DNA of 37,938 bases from a virus: positions 1-37,938 of the IMG/VR virus record IMGVR_UViG_3300032116_000580, one strand, 5' to 3'. The notes beneath the pieces were generated by a model. That model searched no databases and had not been told where the DNA came from. It worked only from the letters and a program-made list of their open reading frames with translations. Below are positions 1,395 through 22,988 of the stretch, piece after piece (the first letter of the stretch is position 1; every line of letters starts with the position of its first letter). A program made the translations under genes and the position numbers.

Positions 1395-3329
1395 ATGCAA
1401 ATCAACCGCACCCACACCATCGAAGCCCGCGCCAAAGACGATCAGGGCCTGATCGAAATGGCGATCAGCAGCGAGGCGCCCTATGAGCGCTGGTTCGGCA
1501 TCGAGATCCTGCGCCACAGCGCCGAGGCGGTGGACCTAACCCGCCTCAACGATGGCCGCCACCCGCTGCTCATCAACCACGACACCAACCAGCAGGCCGG
1601 CGTGATCAAGTCCGCCTGGCTGGACGAGGACAAAAAACTGCGCGGCAAGGCCAAGTTCAGCCGCAGCGCCTTCGGCAAGGAAATCGAGCAGGACGTGGCC
1701 GACGGCATCCGCAGCCTGGTTTCCGTGGGTTACGAGATCCGCGAGATCGAAGAGGTCGAGGCTGACGGCAAATCCGGCGAGCTGACCACGATCCGCAAGC
1801 TCACGGGCGAAGAATTCGAGCGCGAAATGCGCGCACAGCATGGCGAGCACTTCCATCGCGCCGGCCCGGCGGCCGTGCGCGCGAAGGGCTCGAAGCCGCC
1901 GACCTTCGTGGTCACGCGGTGGGCACCGTTCGAGGCGTCGCTGGTCGCGATTCCCGCGGACGTGGAAGTCGGTGTGGGTCGTGCGGCTGGCGCTGCCGAC
2001 ACGCCGAAGGCAGCAGCAGCACCCGACCAAAACCCCGAACCTTCCCAACCGGAGATCCTCATCATGACGACCGCCCTCGAAAAATCCCCGGTCGAGCTGG
2101 AAGTCGCGCGCCGCGACGCCATCCTCGCCCTGGGCAAACAGTACGGCAAGTATGTCGGCCAGGAAGACATCGCCGACGCCCTGCGCAACGGCCGCAGCGT
2201 GCAGCAGTTCACCGAAGTCATCCTGCAGAAAATGCAGACCCAGCACACCGACACCAGCGCCATGGATCTCGGCCTGAGTAAGAAAGAGATCCAGCGCTAC
2301 TCGCTGGGCCGCGCGCTGGTCGCCAGCATGACCGGCGACTGGGCCAAGGCCGGCTTCGAGCGCGAGTGCTCGCAGGCGCTCGAAAAACTCTGGGGCCGCT
2401 CGCCCGAGGGCTTCTTCCTGCCCTACGAGGCAATGAAGCGTGACTTCAACGTCGGCACCGTCACTGAAGCCGGCAACCTGGTCCCGACCGAGCTGCGCGG
2501 CGACCTCTTCATCGATGCCCTGCGCAACAACCTGGTCGTCGGCCGCCTCGGCGCCACCGTGCTGGCGGGCCTCACCGGCAACGTCGACATCCCGCGCAAG
2601 GCCACCCCGACCACCGTCGGCCGTTTGACTGAGATCGGCTCTGCTTCCGAGACCCAGCCTCTGACCGCCAAGGCGACCCTCTCGCCCAAGCGCGTCGGCG
2701 GCTACGTCGAGGTGTCGAAGCAGGCGCTGATCCAGTCCGCGATGGCGCTGGAGTCGATGATCCGCGACGACCTGCTGATGAGCGCCGCGGTCGAGCTGGA
2801 AAACCAGTCGTTCAACGGCAACGGTACCGCGCCCAACATCCTCGGCATCCGCAACTACACCACCATCGGCAGCACCACCGCCGGCGCCAACGGTCTCGCG
2901 CCGACCTGGGGTCACTTCGTCGACCTCGAGTCCGCCTGCGCCAACAGCAACGCCGAGCCGGACCGCCTCGCGGGCTACGTCATCAACACCCGCACCCGCG
3001 GCCGCCTGAAGCAGACGCAGATGGGCACCAACCTGCCGTTCATCTGGCAGAACAGCGCGCAGCCGCTCAACGGCTACCGCGCTGAAATCACCAACAACAT
3101 GCCCAACAACCTCACCAAGGGCACCAGCACCACCATCTGCTCGGCGGCGATCTTCTCGTCCGACTGGTCGATGGCCGTGGTCGGCCTGTTCGGCGCGCCG
3201 GACATCATCGTCGACCCGTTCACCAAGGCCGACACCGGCCAGGTGAAGATCACGCTCAACCAGTTCAGCGACATGGTGATCCGCCAGCCGGCGGCCTTCG
3301 CCAAGATCGAGGACCTGCTGAGCAACTGA
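1395..3329 (+). CDS. Fused HK97-type prohead protease and major capsid protein
   Basis: 644 residues. Residues 1-190 match the S78 prohead protease family. The catalytic histidine is H62 (LINHDTN), the serine is S110 (LVSVGYEI) and the acidic residue is E180 in the family signature P-x-E-x-S-L-V-x-x-P. A linker rich in Ala/Pro (195-222) precedes an HK97-fold major capsid protein from about 224 to 644 (AGNLVPTELR, GYVEVSKQALIQS, FNGNG, and the C-terminal ITLNQFSDMVIRQPAAFAKIEDL). In HK97 these are two genes; here one frame encodes both. An in-frame ATG at 2064 (M224) with GGAG nine bases upstream could give capsid protein alone in excess. RBS for the full gene: AAAGGA at 1383-1388. Confidence 0.93.
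   Translation: MQINRTHTIEARAKDDQGLIEMAISSEAPYERWFGIEILRHSAEAVDLTRLNDGRHPLLINHDTNQQAGVIKSAWLDEDKKLRGKAKFSRSAFGKEIEQDVADGIRSLVSVGYEIREIEEVEADGKSGELTTIRKLTGEEFEREMRAQHGEHFHRAGPAAVRAKGSKPPTFVVTRWAPFEASLVAIPADVEVGVGRAAGAADTPKAAAAPDQNPEPSQPEILIMTTALEKSPVELEVARRDAILALGKQYGKYVGQEDIADALRNGRSVQQFTEVILQKMQTQHTDTSAMDLGLSKKEIQRYSLGRALVASMTGDWAKAGFERECSQALEKLWGRSPEGFFLPYEAMKRDFNVGTVTEAGNLVPTELRGDLFIDALRNNLVVGRLGATVLAGLTGNVDIPRKATPTTVGRLTEIGSASETQPLTAKATLSPKRVGGYVEVSKQALIQSAMALESMIRDDLLMSAAVELENQSFNGNGTAPNILGIRNYTTIGSTTAGANGLAPTWGHFVDLESACANSNAEPDRLAGYVINTRTRGRLKQTQMGTNLPFIWQNSAQPLNGYRAEITNNMPNNLTKGTSTTICSAAIFSSDWSMAVVGLFGAPDIIVDPFTKADTGQVKITLNQFSDMVIRQPAAFAKIEDLLSN
2051..2066 (+). promoter_or_regulatory. 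Internal ribosome binding site and start for the capsid domain
   Basis: GGAG at 2051-2054 is followed nine bases later by ATG 2064-2066, in frame with the protease/capsid fusion (codon 224). It falls exactly at the linker-capsid boundary. Translation here would give a 421-residue protein of normal size for an HK97-type capsid subunit. This is a sequence prediction. Capsid subunits need to outnumber protease, and an internal start would achieve that. Confidence 0.55.
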
Positions 3330-17729: not shown

Positions 17730-17754
17730 ACGGGCCGGCACCCTGCCGGCCCGT
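17730..17754. other. Perfect 10-bp hairpin after the lysis genes
   Basis: ACGGGCCGGC / GCCGGCCCGT with a five-base loop (ACCCT) begins 15 bases after the Rz stop. No T run follows, so it is not a standard intrinsic terminator; it may slow or protect transcripts. The right half belongs to the 73-bp repeat; the second copy of that repeat lacks the left half and cannot form it. Confidence 0.55.
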
Positions 17755-17811
17755 AGCGGCGCCGCGCTGACTGCATCCCGAAGGGGTGCGGGCAGACCCG
17801 CATCGCGGGGC
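17739..17811. repeat. 73-bp direct repeat, copy 1
   Basis: This 73-base stretch (starting CACCCTGCCGGCCCG) recurs at 19372-19444 with one mismatch (G 17780, A 19413). No gene covers either copy. Each copy precedes a tRNA 3' fragment (tRNA-Pro after copy 1, tRNA-His after copy 2). The two copies bracket the tRNA-Pro fragment and the four-gene cassette. The rest of the 17716-18038 gap holds the tRNA-Pro fragment and short repeats described separately. Confidence 0.9.
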
Positions 17812-17908
17812 ACCCCGAAAAAAGCCTGTAGAATCAAGGCCTCAATTTCGCGTCAAAGCGCAGGCAAAATTCCTTAAGTTATTGATTCCGCTCATTTGTA
17901 TCCCGCCA

Positions 17909-17953
<45 letters not shown>

Positions 17954-18005
17954 TATCCCTCTGATTCGATTGCACTTTTTGTTGCGGTCGGGTCCATTCC
18001 TTGGA

Positions 18006-18038: not shown

Positions 18039-18404
18039 TTAGTCGCTGTTTTGCCATGTCAAAACTGCCGGCCCGCTGTAGGGCGGCATGCTGACCGTGA
18101 CATAAACCCACGCCTCCTCTGAATCGGCTGCATTTTGGCGGTCAATTTGCAATTGAAGAGATTCGGTGTTGATCTCGCCCCATGATTCGTCAATTGCGTC
18201 CGCCTCAAAAGACGTTAGATAAGTTCCGCGTTCAGCAAACTGGGTGAGCGCTCTCGTCAGAAAACCCTCGGGGATGGGGATCAGCGCACCTTCGGCGTCG
18301 CGTTGATTGCAGCAGACACCGGCTGTTTGCTGTTGGTAGGTTATCCCAGTCGGCAGCGGCAAAATCAATGCAGGCTGCATTAAGTCGTATAAAGAAAAAA
18401 TCAT
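18039..18404 (-). CDS. Cassette protein, 121 aa (DUF6210-like)
   Basis: 121 residues from ATG 18404, which overlaps the stop of the upstream gene (CTGATG). The N-terminal pattern ILPLPTGITYQQQTAGVCCNQRDAEGALIPIPEG resembles DUF6210 proteins (G-V-x-Y-x-x-Q-x-G-x-x-C-x...E-G-x-x-x-P); this link is from memory and tentative. Two adjacent cysteines are present, with no signal peptide or membrane segment. The C-terminal half is acidic (FEADAIDESWGEINTESL). It is the last gene of a leftward four-gene unit with a composition less GC-rich than the phage core. The real function is unknown. Confidence 0.65.
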   Translation of the reverse strand: MIFSLYDLMQPALILPLPTGITYQQQTAGVCCNQRDAEGALIPIPEGFLTRALTQFAERGTYLTSFEADAIDESWGEINTESLQLQIDRQNAADSEEAWVYVTVSMPPYSGPAVLTWQNSD

Positions 18405-18556
18405 CAGGGGCTCTCTGAAATTTTCCGTGTCGGCAGCGGCATGTCGATGTCGCTGATCGGGATGTCGTGCTGGTGGATGTAGCCTTCGCTGGTGCTGCCG
18501 GCGGCGGCGAGTTGCTGGGCGGCGCGGAATTCGTTGCGAGCTTGTTTGATGTTCAT
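18404..18556 (-). CDS. Small protein of the cassette, 50 aa
   Basis: 50 residues from ATG 18556, with an excellent AAGGAG site (AAGGAGATAAAAA-ATG). It begins MNIKQARNEFRAAQQL and ends PLPTRKISESP. The first 20 residues form an amphipathic helix; the rest is polar with IHQHDIPISDIDMPLP. Its TGA overlaps the ATG of the downstream 121-residue gene, indicating coupled translation in an approximately equal ratio. A toxin-antitoxin or effector-partner pair is one possibility; the sequence itself does not identify one. Confidence 0.62.
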   Translation of the reverse strand: MNIKQARNEFRAAQQLAAAGSTSEGYIHQHDIPISDIDMPLPTRKISESP

Positions 18557-18614
18557 TTTTTATCTCCTTGAGATCGGTCTGCACGATTGCTGACTCACAG
18601 GTTGCCAGGGAGCA

Positions 18615-18992
18615 TTACTCCCCCGCTTGCTTGAGTGCTTTGCGAATGCCTTCGCTGACGTTGCCATTGCCCAGGCGTGTGGCGATAGCGATGCTTTCGG
18701 CGTCGAGATAGGTATTGACCTTCTTGCCGCCCTGCATCTCTGCCGGGCGTCCGACAGGGGTTTGCTCGATACCTAGCGCAGCAGCAACCTTTCGCTGTTC
18801 CAGGCTGCGATAAACACGGGCATTGAGCATCGCATAAATGCCTGCTTCGGTTCGCACCAGAGCGCCAGTTTCAACCCCATCTTGCGTCACGGTGCCGAGC
18901 ACCGTACAGCCCGCAGGGATTGAGTTTGTGTAGAGCCGCCAATTGCCGTTTGTATCAACGACAATGCGGCCACGGTTTAGGTGGCCGCTCAT
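18615..18992 (-). CDS. Cassette protein with a ribbon-helix-helix-like C-terminus, 125 aa
   Basis: 125 residues. The N-terminal 65 residues are beta-rich (RGRIVVDTNGNWRLYTN, CTVLGTVTQDGVETGALVRTEAGIYAMLNA). The C-terminal end, GKKVNTYLDAESIAIATRLGNGNVSEGIRKALKQ, reads as a short ribbon-helix-helix-like DNA-binding motif: a beta strand (KVNTYLD) and two helices ending G-x-R-x-A-L. Such motifs occur in antitoxins and small repressors. It is a good candidate for the protein that binds the palindrome upstream of the operon. Start ATG 18992 lies two bases after the upstream stop. Confidence 0.66.
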   Translation of the reverse strand: MSGHLNRGRIVVDTNGNWRLYTNSIPAGCTVLGTVTQDGVETGALVRTEAGIYAMLNARVYRSLEQRKVAAALGIEQTPVGRPAEMQGGKKVNTYLDAESIAIATRLGNGNVSEGIRKALKQAGE

Positions 18993-18994
18993 GA

Positions 18995-19210
18995 TTAAGC
19001 CTGCTGCCAGTTGTCGTAGCCGTACTTAACAGCTACCGGAATATAGCGGATGCCGTCTTCGCCATGGTCTTCCGCTTCCGCAACTTCGATTTTTAGGCCA
19101 ACGGCTTGCTGGTATGTCTTGCTGGCAATTGCCTTGGCGCCGTTCAGGGTCTTGGCGTTGGTCTTCATCCAGCAATCGTCAGAACCGCCGCCGATGTAGA
19201 ACTTGGTCAT
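18995..19210 (-). CDS. First gene of the cassette, 71 aa
   Basis: 71 residues from ATG 19210, with AGGAG nine bases upstream. The frame is open further back to 19291, but the promoter lies there. MTKFYIGGGSDDCWMKTNAKTLNGAKAIASKTYQQA begins as a small beta-alpha domain, with one cysteine and a C-terminal segment GIRYIPVAVKYGYDNWQQ. I do not recognise the family; short proteins with the K-T-x-x-G-A-K-x-x-A pattern occur in accessory regions. It is the promoter-proximal gene of the leftward unit. Confidence 0.62.
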   Translation of the reverse strand: MTKFYIGGGSDDCWMKTNAKTLNGAKAIASKTYQQAVGLKIEVAEAEDHGEDGIRYIPVAVKYGYDNWQQA

Positions 19211-19276
19211 TTTGTTTCTCCTACCCCTGATTCCCCGAGGTGCGGTTGGTTGGCGTTGTTGCCTTCCATGCGGTGA

Positions 19277-19320
19277 ATTATATACGCACAAAATTAGATT
19301 GCAAGAATTTTATGCGTATA
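19277..19320 (-). promoter_or_regulatory. Leftward promoter with palindromic operator for the four-gene cassette
   Basis: On the minus strand TTGCAA (19305-19300) and TATAAT (19282-19277) are separated by 17 bases or 16 depending on boundary choice. Around them lie 15-base inverted arms at 19281-19295 and 19306-19320 with one mismatch and a 10-base centre, in a strikingly AT-rich stretch. The palindrome covers the -35 and spacer, so a bound protein would block transcription. This suggests autoregulation by a product of the cassette. Confidence 0.68.
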
Positions 19321-19371: not shown

Positions 19372-19444
19372 CACCCTGCCGGCCCGTAGCGGCGCCGCGC
19401 TGACTGCATCCCAAAGGGGTGCGGGCAGACCCGCATCGCGGGGC
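19372..19444. repeat. 73-bp direct repeat, copy 2
   Basis: Matches 17739-17811 with one mismatch. It lies between the cassette promoter and the attP region. Immediately after it come short arm-like repeats and the integrase stop codon at 19504. The rest of the 19211-19503 gap consists of the cassette promoter and these repeats; I see no gene in it. Confidence 0.9.
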
Positions 19445-19450
19445 CGCTGG

Positions 19451-19706
19451 TGTGCGGGATTTTGTCCCGGTTTTGTGCGGCCTGTGCTAGATTTGTGCCT
19501 GTTCTAGGCTGCGCTGGCGGTTTCGTTCTGAAAATCCGCCTTTAAAATCAATAACCTGCAAACGCACTTCAACCCGGCGCGGTTTGTGATTCCGGTTGTC
19601 GTGGGTTCGAGTCCCATCAGCCACCCCACCAATTCCTTGTTTTTGCTGGTGTTTTCATCAGCGCTGTTTGTGTGTCGATTCGGGGTGTGCGTGATTTTGT
19701 CCCGGT
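19451..19706. repeat. 21-bp repeats flanking the attP core (probable integrase arm sites)
   Basis: Two 21-base copies, 19451-19471 and 19686-19706, share a core GATTTTGTCCCGGT and differ at one base. They lie 112 bases left and 57 bases right of the tRNA-His core. A related TTTTGTGCGG (19471-19480) and TTTGTGCC are next to the left copy. The arrangement fits arm-type integrase sites on both P and P' arms. Confidence 0.68.
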
Positions 19707-20667
19707 CGCCGCACAGTGCGTCGGCGTAGTGGGCGATGTGGCTGCGGGCGAGGTGTGCGTAGCGCAGAACCATGTCGAGTGATGCCCAGCCGCCCAGCTC
19801 CTTTAGTACCTGCAGCGGTGTGCCGCGCATGACGTGCCAGCTTGCCCAGGTGTGGCGCAGGTCGTGCCAGTGGAGATCCTTGAGGCCGGCGCGGTCGCAG
19901 GCGTTGTGCCAGGCGCGGGTGCTGACCTTGTTGACGGGTTTGCCGTCGTAGGGGAAGACCCAGTGCGCATGGATGCCGCGCTGGTTGTTGAGGACGGTGA
20001 TCGCGGCGTCGTTGAGGGGCACGCTGTGGGCGCGTTCGGTTTTGAAGTCGTCGGGCATGATCCAGGCGACGCGCCGCTCGAGGCTGACTTGTGACCATTG
20101 CAGATACTGCACGTTGCTGGCACGCAGGCCGGTGGCGAGCGTGAAGGCGGCCATGACGTTGAGGTGGGGCGGCAGCTCGCGCAGCAGGGCGGCGGCTTCT
20201 TCGGGGGTGATCCAGCGCATGCGCTGGTTGTGTTCCTTGAGTTTGCGGGTGGCGGGGACGCTGGCGATCCAGCCGCGGCGGCGGGCGACGTTGAGGACGG
20301 CGCCGAAGGCGGCCATGTAGCGGTTGACGGTGGCCGGGGCGCGATCGCGCTGCAGTTCGGCGATGAGGTCTTCGGCGGTCTGTGCGGTGATCTGGCGCAG
20401 GGCGGTGTTGCCGAGGCGGGCGTCGAGCCAGCGCAGGCGGTCCTTGGTGTCGTTGAGGCTGCGCAGGTGCTGGCGTTCGTCGAGGTAGGCGAGCATGGCC
20501 TCGCGCCAGGTGCGGTGGTTTATGCCGAGCTGGGTCGATTCCCAAAGCTCAACGGCACGACGTTGCGCCCAGCGCTCGGCCTGGGCCTTGTCTGTCGTGC
20601 GAGCGCTTTCGCGGTGGCCGCGTCCGAAATCTGCCCACCAGGTGTTGCCGCGTTTGTAGAGTCGCAT
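19504..20667 (-). CDS. int: Tyrosine-family integrase
   Basis: 387 residues from ATG 20667. The catalytic set is visible: R182 (TLATGLRAS), K210 (DDFKTERAH), H268-x-x-R271 (HWHDLRHTW), W294 at the usual H/W position (LGGWAS) and Y303 (MVLRYAHL). The N-terminal 50 residues give a small arm-binding domain, then a core-binding domain to about 150. The last 45 residues are encoded by the antisense of a tRNA-His 3' half (GWLMGLEPTTTGITNR), so the attP core lies inside the gene and the C-terminus will differ in the integrated prophage. The 5' end overlaps the excisionase gene by 148 bases in another frame. Confidence 0.95.
   Translation of the reverse strand: MRLYKRGNTWWADFGRGHRESARTTDKAQAERWAQRRAVELWESTQLGINHRTWREAMLAYLDERQHLRSLNDTKDRLRWLDARLGNTALRQITAQTAEDLIAELQRDRAPATVNRYMAAFGAVLNVARRRGWIASVPATRKLKEHNQRMRWITPEEAAALLRELPPHLNVMAAFTLATGLRASNVQYLQWSQVSLERRVAWIMPDDFKTERAHSVPLNDAAITVLNNQRGIHAHWVFPYDGKPVNKVSTRAWHNACDRAGLKDLHWHDLRHTWASWHVMRGTPLQVLKELGGWASLDMVLRYAHLARSHIAHYADALCGDRDKITHTPNRHTNSADENTSKNKELVGWLMGLEPTTTGITNRAGLKCVCRLLILKADFQNETASAA
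19584..19628. other. attP: attP core: 3' half of tRNA-His within the integrase gene
   Basis: The plus strand reads TTGTGAT (anticodon GTG), the anticodon 3' strand, GTTGTC, T-arm (GTGGG TTCGAGT CCCAT), acceptor CAGCCAC, C73 and CCA. This is tRNA-His; C73 opposite an extra G is a known His feature. The 5' half is missing (upstream sequence does not pair), so it is not a gene. Being next to and inside int and flanked by 21-bp repeats, it is the likely site of integration. Confidence 0.85.
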
Positions 20668-21051: not shown

Positions 21052-21327
21052 TCAGTAGTCCACCCCAAAGGCAAACCGGGGGAATTCGCCGCCCTCAGCG
21101 ATTTCACTGGCAAGCAGCTCGCGGGCGGTGATGCGTTTGGTGCCGTCGAAGTCTTCGCTGATGTCAATCAAAATGCTGTCGAGCTCGGCCTCGGTGTATT
21201 CGCGGGCATCCTCAAGATCTTCGGTGGCAAAGGGCTCGTTGTTCCGGGCTGCGGCGCAAGCGGTTTTGGTGGTTTCCAGATCCGGGCCGATCCAGCTTTC
21301 CTCGTCGCACATGTGAAAAAGTTTCAT
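21052..21327 (-). CDS. Acidic hypothetical protein, 91 aa
   Basis: 91 residues from ATG 21327, overlapping the ParB-like gene's stop by four bases. The frame extends further upstream but only as a shadow of that gene. MKLFHMCDEESWIGPDLETTKTACAAAR is followed by a strongly acidic stretch (ATEDLEDAREYTEAELDSILIDISEDFDG) and ends EFPRFAFGVDY. Acidity could indicate a DNA mimic or a protein that binds basic partners, but this is a guess. It is placed in the leftward early operon. Confidence 0.65.
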   Translation of the reverse strand: MKLFHMCDEESWIGPDLETTKTACAAARNNEPFATEDLEDAREYTEAELDSILIDISEDFDGTKRITARELLASEIAEGGEFPRFAFGVDY

Positions 21328-22988
21328 TTCCTGCCTCCCTTCCCGCCCTTGCCCTGGCCCGGCGCAGCCGTGGGTTTTAGGGCTTGGGTGACTTCGGCGC
21401 GGATTTTCTTGGGGTCGATGTTGAGGCGCTGGGCGATCTGGAGGGTGAGGTCGGGCTTGTCTCCGGTGCATTCGTTCTCCCGGCAGAGCAGCCACAGCAC
21501 CACGTAGCGCAGCAGCTCGGGTTCGCTCATGCGGACGATGGGCTGGTCGAAAAGGCCTTCGAGCTGGTCGTAGCTGTCCCAGTCGCTCAGGATCTCGGCG
21601 AGGTGTTGGAGTTCGGGTTGTTTGAGCGGGCCTTTGTATTTGCCGGCGATGGTGCGGATGAGGCGGTCGCGGTATTCGCGCTCGATGCGTTCCTGGGCTT
21701 CGGCTTTTTCCTGTTCGCGGCGTTCGGCTTCGATCATGCCGGCGAGCGCGGCAGACTGCTGTTGCGGCCGGGTGCGGGCGAGGGCGTTTTCGATGCTCCA
21801 GTGCAGCTTGATCTTTTTGGCCTTGAGGATCTTGGCGACAGCCTCGACCGGGGCGCAGGGGATGATGGCGTCGTCGGTTTCGACGTAGACCGTGCCTTCG
21901 GGCTCGCCGATAAGGCTGAGGTAGGTGGGGGGTTCCCAGGCCTCGAGGCGTTCTTGCCAGGCGTCCTCCCGCGCCTCGAAGGCGTCGTCGGGTTCGTTTT
22001 TGCTGCGGACGGGTTCGGGCTCGGGGAAGGTGATGGTGTCGACGGTGTCGTCGAGGCGCAGGAAGCCGTTGCTGACGGTGGGGTAGCTGCCGTGGACGGG
22101 GTAGGGCTTCGCGTCCTTGCCGGTGATGAGGGTTTTGCCGGCGGCCTGGAGTTCGGCGCGGGTGCGGATCCAGTGCAGGCTGCGCTTGAGGTCGAAGCAT
22201 TCGCCGTCGAGGCAAACGTCGCGGCCTTCGAGTTCGGCGGCGAGGGCGGGGTCGCTGAGGCTGCGGCTGGGGCAGCCGGTGCAGCTGCGGCAGGGCTGGC
22301 CTTTAGTGTCGGTGAGCTGGTCGTGGTCGGGCAGCCAGGGCGCGTCGTCGAGGTCGATCATGGCTTCGCGGCTCACCTGTGCCATGAGGTCGCGGTAGCT
22401 GTAGTCGTGTTCGCCGTCGAGGACGAGTTCGAGTGCACGCGCCTGCATTTTTTCGCCGTGGATGCGGGCGAGCACCAAGGCCTTGCTGGCGTCGAGCTGG
22501 CCGCGCTGCAGGGCGTCGCGGGCCTGGGGGATGAGGTCGAGCAGCTTGAGGCGGGCGTAGACGTAGCTGCGGGACTTGCCGATTTTTTCACCCACCGTCT
22601 CGGCGTTGCAGCCGGTGGCGTGCATGAGTTCGGCGTAGCCTTCGGCCTCTTCGAGGGCCTGCAGCCCTTCGCGCTGGAGATTCTCGACAATCTGGGCTTC
22701 GAGGACTTCGGTGTCGGTCATGTCGCGCACGATGGCGGGGATCTGCGCGAGGCCGGCGCGCTGGGCGGCGATCCAGCGGCGCTCGCCGGCGACGATTTCG
22801 TAGCGGTGGAGGTGGTCGGCGGTGGGCGCCACACGGACGAGGATGGGCTGGAGTACGCCGTTGATGGCGATGCTCTCGGCCAGCTCGGTGAGGCGGTCTT
22901 CGTTGAGGTGGGCGCGGCGCAGGGTCTGCACCTGGGTGTGGCTGGGGACGATGCGGTCAGGCGGCAGCAGTTGCAGGGTGGCGGTCAT
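21324..22988 (-). CDS. ParB/Srx-domain protein, 554 aa
   Basis: Residues about 1-110 make a ParB/Srx-like domain: LPPDRIVPSHTQ, then INGVLQPILVRV, EIVAGERRWIAAQ (the GERR box), and VENLQREGLQALEEAEGY. A ParB helix-turn-helix follows (about 125-190; ATGCNAETVGEKIGKSRSYVYARLKL). After a CRSCTGCPSR cysteine cluster near 240, a long C-terminal region is specific to this type. In ParB proteins this domain binds CTP and loads onto DNA at a specific site. No ParA-like ATPase gene is present in the window, so plasmid-type partition is unlikely. A role in replication, gene control or inhibition of host functions is possible. Confidence 0.85.
   Translation of the reverse strand: MTATLQLLPPDRIVPSHTQVQTLRRAHLNEDRLTELAESIAINGVLQPILVRVAPTADHLHRYEIVAGERRWIAAQRAGLAQIPAIVRDMTDTEVLEAQIVENLQREGLQALEEAEGYAELMHATGCNAETVGEKIGKSRSYVYARLKLLDLIPQARDALQRGQLDASKALVLARIHGEKMQARALELVLDGEHDYSYRDLMAQVSREAMIDLDDAPWLPDHDQLTDTKGQPCRSCTGCPSRSLSDPALAAELEGRDVCLDGECFDLKRSLHWIRTRAELQAAGKTLITGKDAKPYPVHGSYPTVSNGFLRLDDTVDTITFPEPEPVRSKNEPDDAFEAREDAWQERLEAWEPPTYLSLIGEPEGTVYVETDDAIIPCAPVEAVAKILKAKKIKLHWSIENALARTRPQQQSAALAGMIEAERREQEKAEAQERIEREYRDRLIRTIAGKYKGPLKQPELQHLAEILSDWDSYDQLEGLFDQPIVRMSEPELLRYVVLWLLCRENECTGDKPDLTLQIAQRLNIDPKKIRAEVTQALKPTAAPGQGKGGKGGRK

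Follow-up and report, generated by a model that had tools for sequence, protein, structure and literature searches.

A phage accessory locus with exchangeable small genes, a ribbon-helix-helix-like regulator and a two-hairpin leader: a candidate anti-defence operon

The window analysed here is the linear virus sequence IMGVR_UViG_3300032116_000580 of IMG/VR, taken over its full length of 37,938 bp. It belongs to a tailed phage with genes for terminase, portal, major head, tape measure and tail fibre. The locus under study contains four ORFs on the minus strand: A71 (18995..19210), preceded by an AGGAG ribosome-binding site, B125 (18615..18992), C50 (18404..18556), with its own AAGGAG, and D121 (18039..18404). 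B125 starts 2 nt past A71, C50 follows 58 nt further on, and D121 overlaps C50. All four ORFs, of 71, 125, 50 and 121 codons, are present at the lengths given in an earlier sequence-only reading of this DNA, and the lower GC content reported there was found as well (0.55 in the ORF block vs 0.654 in the whole window).

The block was also rightly placed between two att sites, as it is bracketed by the 3' halves of two tRNA genes. The tyrosine integrase gene (19504..20667, minus strand; PF00589, E=1.1e-28) contains at its 3' end a tRNA-His 3' half (plus strand, about 19581..19628), identified through annotated tRNA-His genes in the matching sequences; this is likely the phage's own attP. The other site (plus strand, about 17902..17957) was found by sequence match as a tRNA 3'-half-like sequence and, on our reading of it by eye, is of the tRNA-Pro type. 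Its minus strand encodes an integrase-like C-terminal tail, SGREDLNLRPPAP, with no integrase body. The integrase of the phage has its end in the tRNA-His copy, so the integrase-like tail at the other copy is apparently what was left behind of an older integrase, and the relict att site with this tail seems to be the trace of a previous integration module. The relict att site and the four ORFs together lie between two copies of a 73-bp direct repeat (17739..17811 and 19372..19444, plus strand, 99% identical); recombination between them would delete both the relict site and the cassette. The only contig of the viral collection with the 29-nt core of this repeat is L109, which belongs to the same virus. 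A ParB-like partition protein of 554 aa is encoded near the integrase (21324-22988).

A71 is preceded by a candidate sigma-70 promoter (19277..19304, minus strand), with the -35 box TTGCAA at 19304-19299, a 16-nt spacer and the -10 box TATAAT at 19282-19277. It matches 10 of the 12 consensus positions and aligns in relatives. The candidate operator is an inverted repeat at 19281..19320, whose 15-bp arms (19281-19295 and 19306-19320) match at 14 positions. It sits inside the core promoter, overlapping the -10 box and flanking the -35 box. No such repeat arose in 100 shuffles, and a scan of the window in 102 tiles found no other of this kind. Both the own promoter and the palindrome noticed earlier are real.

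The promoter is separated from the first gene by a conserved stretch of some 60 nt, a candidate 5' leader RNA with two hairpins (19208..19270, minus strand). In the predicted fold, SL1 occupies approximately 19247-19268 and SL2 approximately 19223-19241, the latter adjoining the Shine-Dalgarno box AGGAG (19218-19222). The covariance model assigns 72.9 bits to the window leader, which is among the sequences used to build it. In the alignment of 22 leaders 81% of cells pair, and changes on both sides of a pair occur in 24 cells, compared with 11.4+-2.7 in shuffled alignments (0/500 reaching the observed count); the score is 0.203 vs at most 0.112 in slid controls. The compensatory changes thus exceed the controls, as expected of a structured RNA. 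No Rfam family matched the leader or any other part of the window. The possibility that the 5' UTR encodes a leader peptide was rejected, since the reading frame through the conserved leader DNA is not the same from one relative to the next. A search of 369 genomes with the leader model returned the already known Dechloromonas locus and one false positive (L146), and nothing else. One phage (L138) contains two leader copies about 830 nt apart (2156-2213 and 2990-3047), that is, tandem cassettes.

The ribbon-helix-helix-like (RHH-like) protein of the sequence-only reading is B125, and more exactly its C-terminal domain (aa 80-125; 18615..18755, minus strand). The assignment comes from the sequence pattern, the recurrence of the domain and a pair of helices in the AF2 model (98-107 and 112-124) that follow the segment KKVNTYLD; formation of the strand would need a dimer. 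The best Pfam matches of this region, CcdA (E 0.11) and RHH_1 (E 0.21), are below the cut-offs, and hhalign against a hand-made CopG-like set of three rows gave E 0.0014 with Prob 17.5. B125 has no HTH match. PDB profile searches with the profiles A1 and A2 gave no significant match, nor did Foldseek with the B125 model (best VIA Z 3.1); the absence of RHH chains from that fold list proves nothing, as the list was filled by the N-terminal domain. In relatives the RHH domain is often found alone or behind other N-terminal parts. In L033, L046, L054, L066 and L093, which include a Salmonella plasmid, the N-terminal part fused to this RHH domain is of a second type (MYRVYLRTxDQxV...).

Related loci were gathered by searches with B125, with the leader pattern and with a profile of the B125 C-terminus, and by tblastn. 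They have in common a recurring unit that consists of the promoter, the 14/15-bp operator, the two-hairpin leader, one or more exchangeable small genes (typically one to three) and, after these, the RHH gene. The unit was found in dozens of viral contigs, in four bacterial genomes and on several plasmids. Loci outside the viral contigs are those of a Dechloromonas MAG, a Propionivibrio MAG, Chitinilyticum aquatile and a Cupriavidus plasmid, to which tblastn added plasmids of Citrobacter, Achromobacter, Sulfuricystis, Polaromonas, Marinobacter and Salmonella, as well as a truncated match in E. coli. In the phage L018 the unit is located just upstream of the terminase gene. On the conjugative plasmid pTTHS031_GES of Citrobacter freundii (L091) the promoter, leader and RHH gene lie beside an ISL3 transposase and an ampC-type gene.

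The genes between the leader and the regulator are a different matter. The window and its relatives are 79-89% identical at the DNA level in the promoter and leader and 66-74% over the length of B125, whereas A71, C50 and D121 have no DNA match in these relatives. The 32 operons hold 35 variable genes, which sort into 32 families; unrelated partners occur even with regulators that are as much as 90% identical. In homologous cargo pairs most of the differences are at third codon positions, which shows that the cargo genes are real coding genes. The four genes had been taken for one cassette; as a conserved unit this is not supported, since only the promoter, the leader and B125 come back in other loci, with unrelated genes in the place of A71 and with no C50 or D121. 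A search for the same gene set in other elements had also been suggested. In the loci found, the four genes never stand together outside the same virus, which is literally an outcome that the earlier reading had named as refuting; the control module, however, is widespread and carries other cargo, and this observation is more informative than the missing co-occurrence.

The position of A71, the variable cargo gene of the window, is occupied in relatives by unrelated genes. A71 itself is an ORFan with a poor structure model (pLDDT 61), no PDB or Pfam match and no significant PHROG match. An apparent relative in L098 was spurious, sharing the string DCWMKTNA. An AcrIF9-like fold was considered for A71 and could not be confirmed: there was no PDB sequence match, and the low-confidence model had no significant fold match. 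C50 has a weak match to phrog_9426, and D121 belongs to the DUF6210 family (Pfam PF19715, 67.8 bits vs the gathering cut-off of 25). Neither has a counterpart beside other RHH regulators in the operons compared; L099 does share D121, but it comes from the same virus. Thus C50 and D121 are probably passengers outside the recurring unit. On a Kitasatospora plasmid (L111) a DUF6210 homologue adjoins the immunity genes Imm7 and SMI1/KNR4. Given this one neighbourhood, D121 may be an immunity protein, and DUF6210 may be a family of such proteins. The family had no match in 274 betaproteobacterial genomes, but the control was equally silent, so this search is uninformative.

The operator and the RHH gene occur together. 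The string TTTTGTGYGTATATAAT, which comprises the right operator arm and the -10 box, was found with at least 15 of 17 matching positions near 28 of 36 RHH genes (in the 1.3-kb region around each gene), compared with 6 of 1440 shuffled regions. Scanning of the whole viral collection with the promoter pattern yielded eight contigs, all eight with an adjacent RHH gene, and all eleven contigs that contain the leader pattern have it beside an RHH gene. In L107 the RHH gene is directly upstream of the operator promoter rather than at the operon end, and a further leader match is located about 2 kb upstream of this gene.

Moreover, the operator and the RHH strand vary in concert. Operators with TGCGTATA accompany the RHH strand (K/R)VNTYLD, and those with TGTGTATA accompany KRVNVYLD; threonine in the strand coincides with C in the operator, and valine or leucine with T, in 29 of 31 operons. 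The pattern is seen whether or not the N-terminal domain of B125 is present. The RHH domain is short, and on the tree, which is badly resolved, only two independent pairs have support; operator and strand agree in both of them in most draws, and with two pairs a phylogenetically independent test is underpowered. The RHH-like domain of B125 is likely a repressor acting at its own palindrome.

The N-terminal domain of B125 (aa 1-75; 18768..18992, minus strand) is predicted to be beta-rich, with five strands in the AF2 model, and is itself recurrent. It exists as a stand-alone gene of 80-81 aa in the Acidovorax phages Alfacinha1 and AP1, in an operon that ends in an HTH gene. As a known Aca the latter was rejected in Alfacinha1, its matches being weak ones to HigA only. 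Scanning with a profile of the N-domain yielded 33 viral loci. In many of them the domain stands alone, the promoter palindromes are different and the leader is the same; HTH-like genes follow it in L114 and L127. The leader is present in 26 of 30 loci with the N-domain and in 3 of 25 without it (Fisher P 2e-8), these loci having been assembled by domain searches and so not being random samples; among held-out loci outside the model the counts are 7 of 11 and 1 of 23 (P 4e-4). This association makes the leader RNA a plausible target of the N-domain. B125 might then be a two-level autoregulator, acting on both DNA and RNA, although the N-domain may possibly be a plain effector. Cargo also crosses between the two kinds of operons: one family is common to the RHH operon of the Citrobacter plasmid and the HTH operon of Alfacinha1, and another, judged by eye, to the RHH operon L079 and the non-RHH operon L125.

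Comparison of the loci thus supports the operon architecture, the co-occurrence and co-variation of operator and RHH domain, the exchange of cargo and the linkage of the leader with the N-domain. Autoregulation, fast cargo exchange and occurrence in both phages and plasmids characterise acr-aca (anti-CRISPR / anti-CRISPR-associated) loci (PMC9410906) and lead to an acr-aca-like reading of the present locus despite the RHH-like regulator, accepted Aca proteins being of the HTH type. We consider it probable (roughly 0.6) that the locus is an autoregulated accessory operon of this kind whose cargo most likely inhibits a host defence, CRISPR-Cas or other. Comparison of 54 cassette proteins with NCBIfam, PHROGs and Pfam gave no match to a known anti-CRISPR or anti-defence family, and it is therefore the architecture from which we infer the anti-defence function; known anti-defence families were likewise not matched by the window genes (PADLOC, a defence library) or in a few PDB searches. 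After entry of the DNA the strong promoter would fire and the first gene, here A71, would be expressed. As B125 accumulates, its C-terminal RHH domain would bind the palindrome over the -35 and -10 boxes and shut the promoter. In cargo exchange the promoter with the leader and the regulator would stay, and the gene between them would be swapped. Tentatively, and with the odds somewhat against it, one may go further and propose an undescribed two-level class of anti-defence loci, in which the beta domain, in B125 or as a stand-alone homologue, would bind the two-hairpin leader and so control translation, a separate DNA-binding domain (RHH when fused, an HTH gene in some other operons) would control transcription through its cognate palindrome, and the anti-defence gene under both controls would be swapped rapidly. 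Of the accessory cassette proposed earlier there remains an accessory locus that is apparently autoregulated, plausibly anti-defence and not assignable by routine homology; the four-gene unit is lost.

Alternatively, the cargo could benefit the lysogen, through exclusion, stress or competition functions, with the same architecture serving as a lysogenic-conversion or superinfection-exclusion moron. Both roles are possible for the cargo, and the position beside int and att, the lower GC content and the cargo having no known anti-defence family would agree with them, as would D121 as an immunity-like protein in view of the DUF6210 homologue next to Imm7 and SMI1/KNR4. Yet a moron seems unlikely, for the control module also resides on plasmids and elsewhere in phage genomes, upstream of the terminase in L018, a rapid change of cargo next to an unchanging regulator is what arms-race genes typically show, and D121 is outside the recurring unit. 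It is very unlikely that this is just a normal early-gene or replication-accessory operon of a temperate phage, without a role in defence: some operons do hold a ParB-like or DNA-binding-like gene and the cargo has no known function, but the operons occur on plasmids and at varied positions, the cargo shares no function by sequence, and the operator and leader are conserved independently of it. Least likely of all is a type II toxin-antitoxin pair made up of B125 as the RHH antitoxin and A71 or C50 as the toxin; toxin-antitoxin functions in general had been named in the sequence-only reading. RHH domains are common in antitoxins, B125 has its weak CcdA and RHH_1 matches, and an autoregulated promoter with a palindrome would be expected; but the partners are unrelated even where the regulators are 89-90% identical, which disfavours such a pair, no partner gene among the 54 cassette proteins matches a toxin family of NCBIfam, PHROGs or Pfam, and the RHH domain is C-terminal and frequently found with no N-domain of the B125 type.

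The acr-aca-like reading matters for the search for anti-defence genes, which have no sequence signature in common and for which proximity to Aca genes of the HTH type is the main guide. Conserved regulatory sequences have already been used to find such genes, and in archaeal viruses RHH domains are among the predicted anti-defence proteins (PMC11065993). The RHH-type regulator with its operator, and the leader shared by RHH-linked and non-RHH-linked operons, would be independent baits, reaching loci, mostly in Betaproteobacteria and also on enterobacterial plasmids, that Aca screens with HTH profiles (PMC9765179) miss. If the two-level reading is true, the leader together with the N-domain would itself be a bait for new anti-defence genes. 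The locus is also a testable case of combined self-control at the DNA and RNA levels.

Aca2 is a single HTH protein that exerts control at both of these levels. Similarly to the present locus, its 5' leader, which precedes an autoregulated accessory operon, forms stem-loops close to the ribosome-binding site; here, by contrast, the candidate for the RNA step is a separate N-domain. In the bifunctional Acr-Aca proteins AcrIIA1, AcrIF24 and AcrIIA15 (PMC9638941, PMC10901769) an autoregulatory DNA-binding domain is fused to another domain, as in B125. That domain is HTH in these proteins and RHH-like in B125, whose N-domain also exists as a stand-alone gene and accompanies the leader RNA. RHH repressors are known to serve plasmid establishment genes, phage repressors being HTH proteins (PMC8708921). 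One of them, Reg of the clade II pLS20-family conjugative plasmids, has operators flanking its promoters, and its repression makes expression of plasmid entry genes transient (PMC8708921). Reg is found on Bacillus-type conjugative plasmids, whereas the present RHH protein is phage-borne and linked to exchanged cargo. The closest layout is that of the acr-aca operons (Aca1-Aca12; PMC9410906, PMC9765179), in which small variable genes are followed by a conserved small DNA-binding protein, on phages and plasmids alike, and in which Aca repressors bind inverted repeats in the core promoter (PMC9410906). The 12 Aca families accepted so far all consist of HTH proteins, Aca13, which has no HTH, being unvalidated (PMC9765179), and no description of an RHH-type Aca was found in the literature searched, most subscription papers lying outside that search. 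The locus therefore has an acr-aca-type layout with a type of regulator not found described for such loci; it differs from acr-aca operons in having an RHH-like instead of an HTH regulator, no detected known Acr and a conserved two-hairpin leader.
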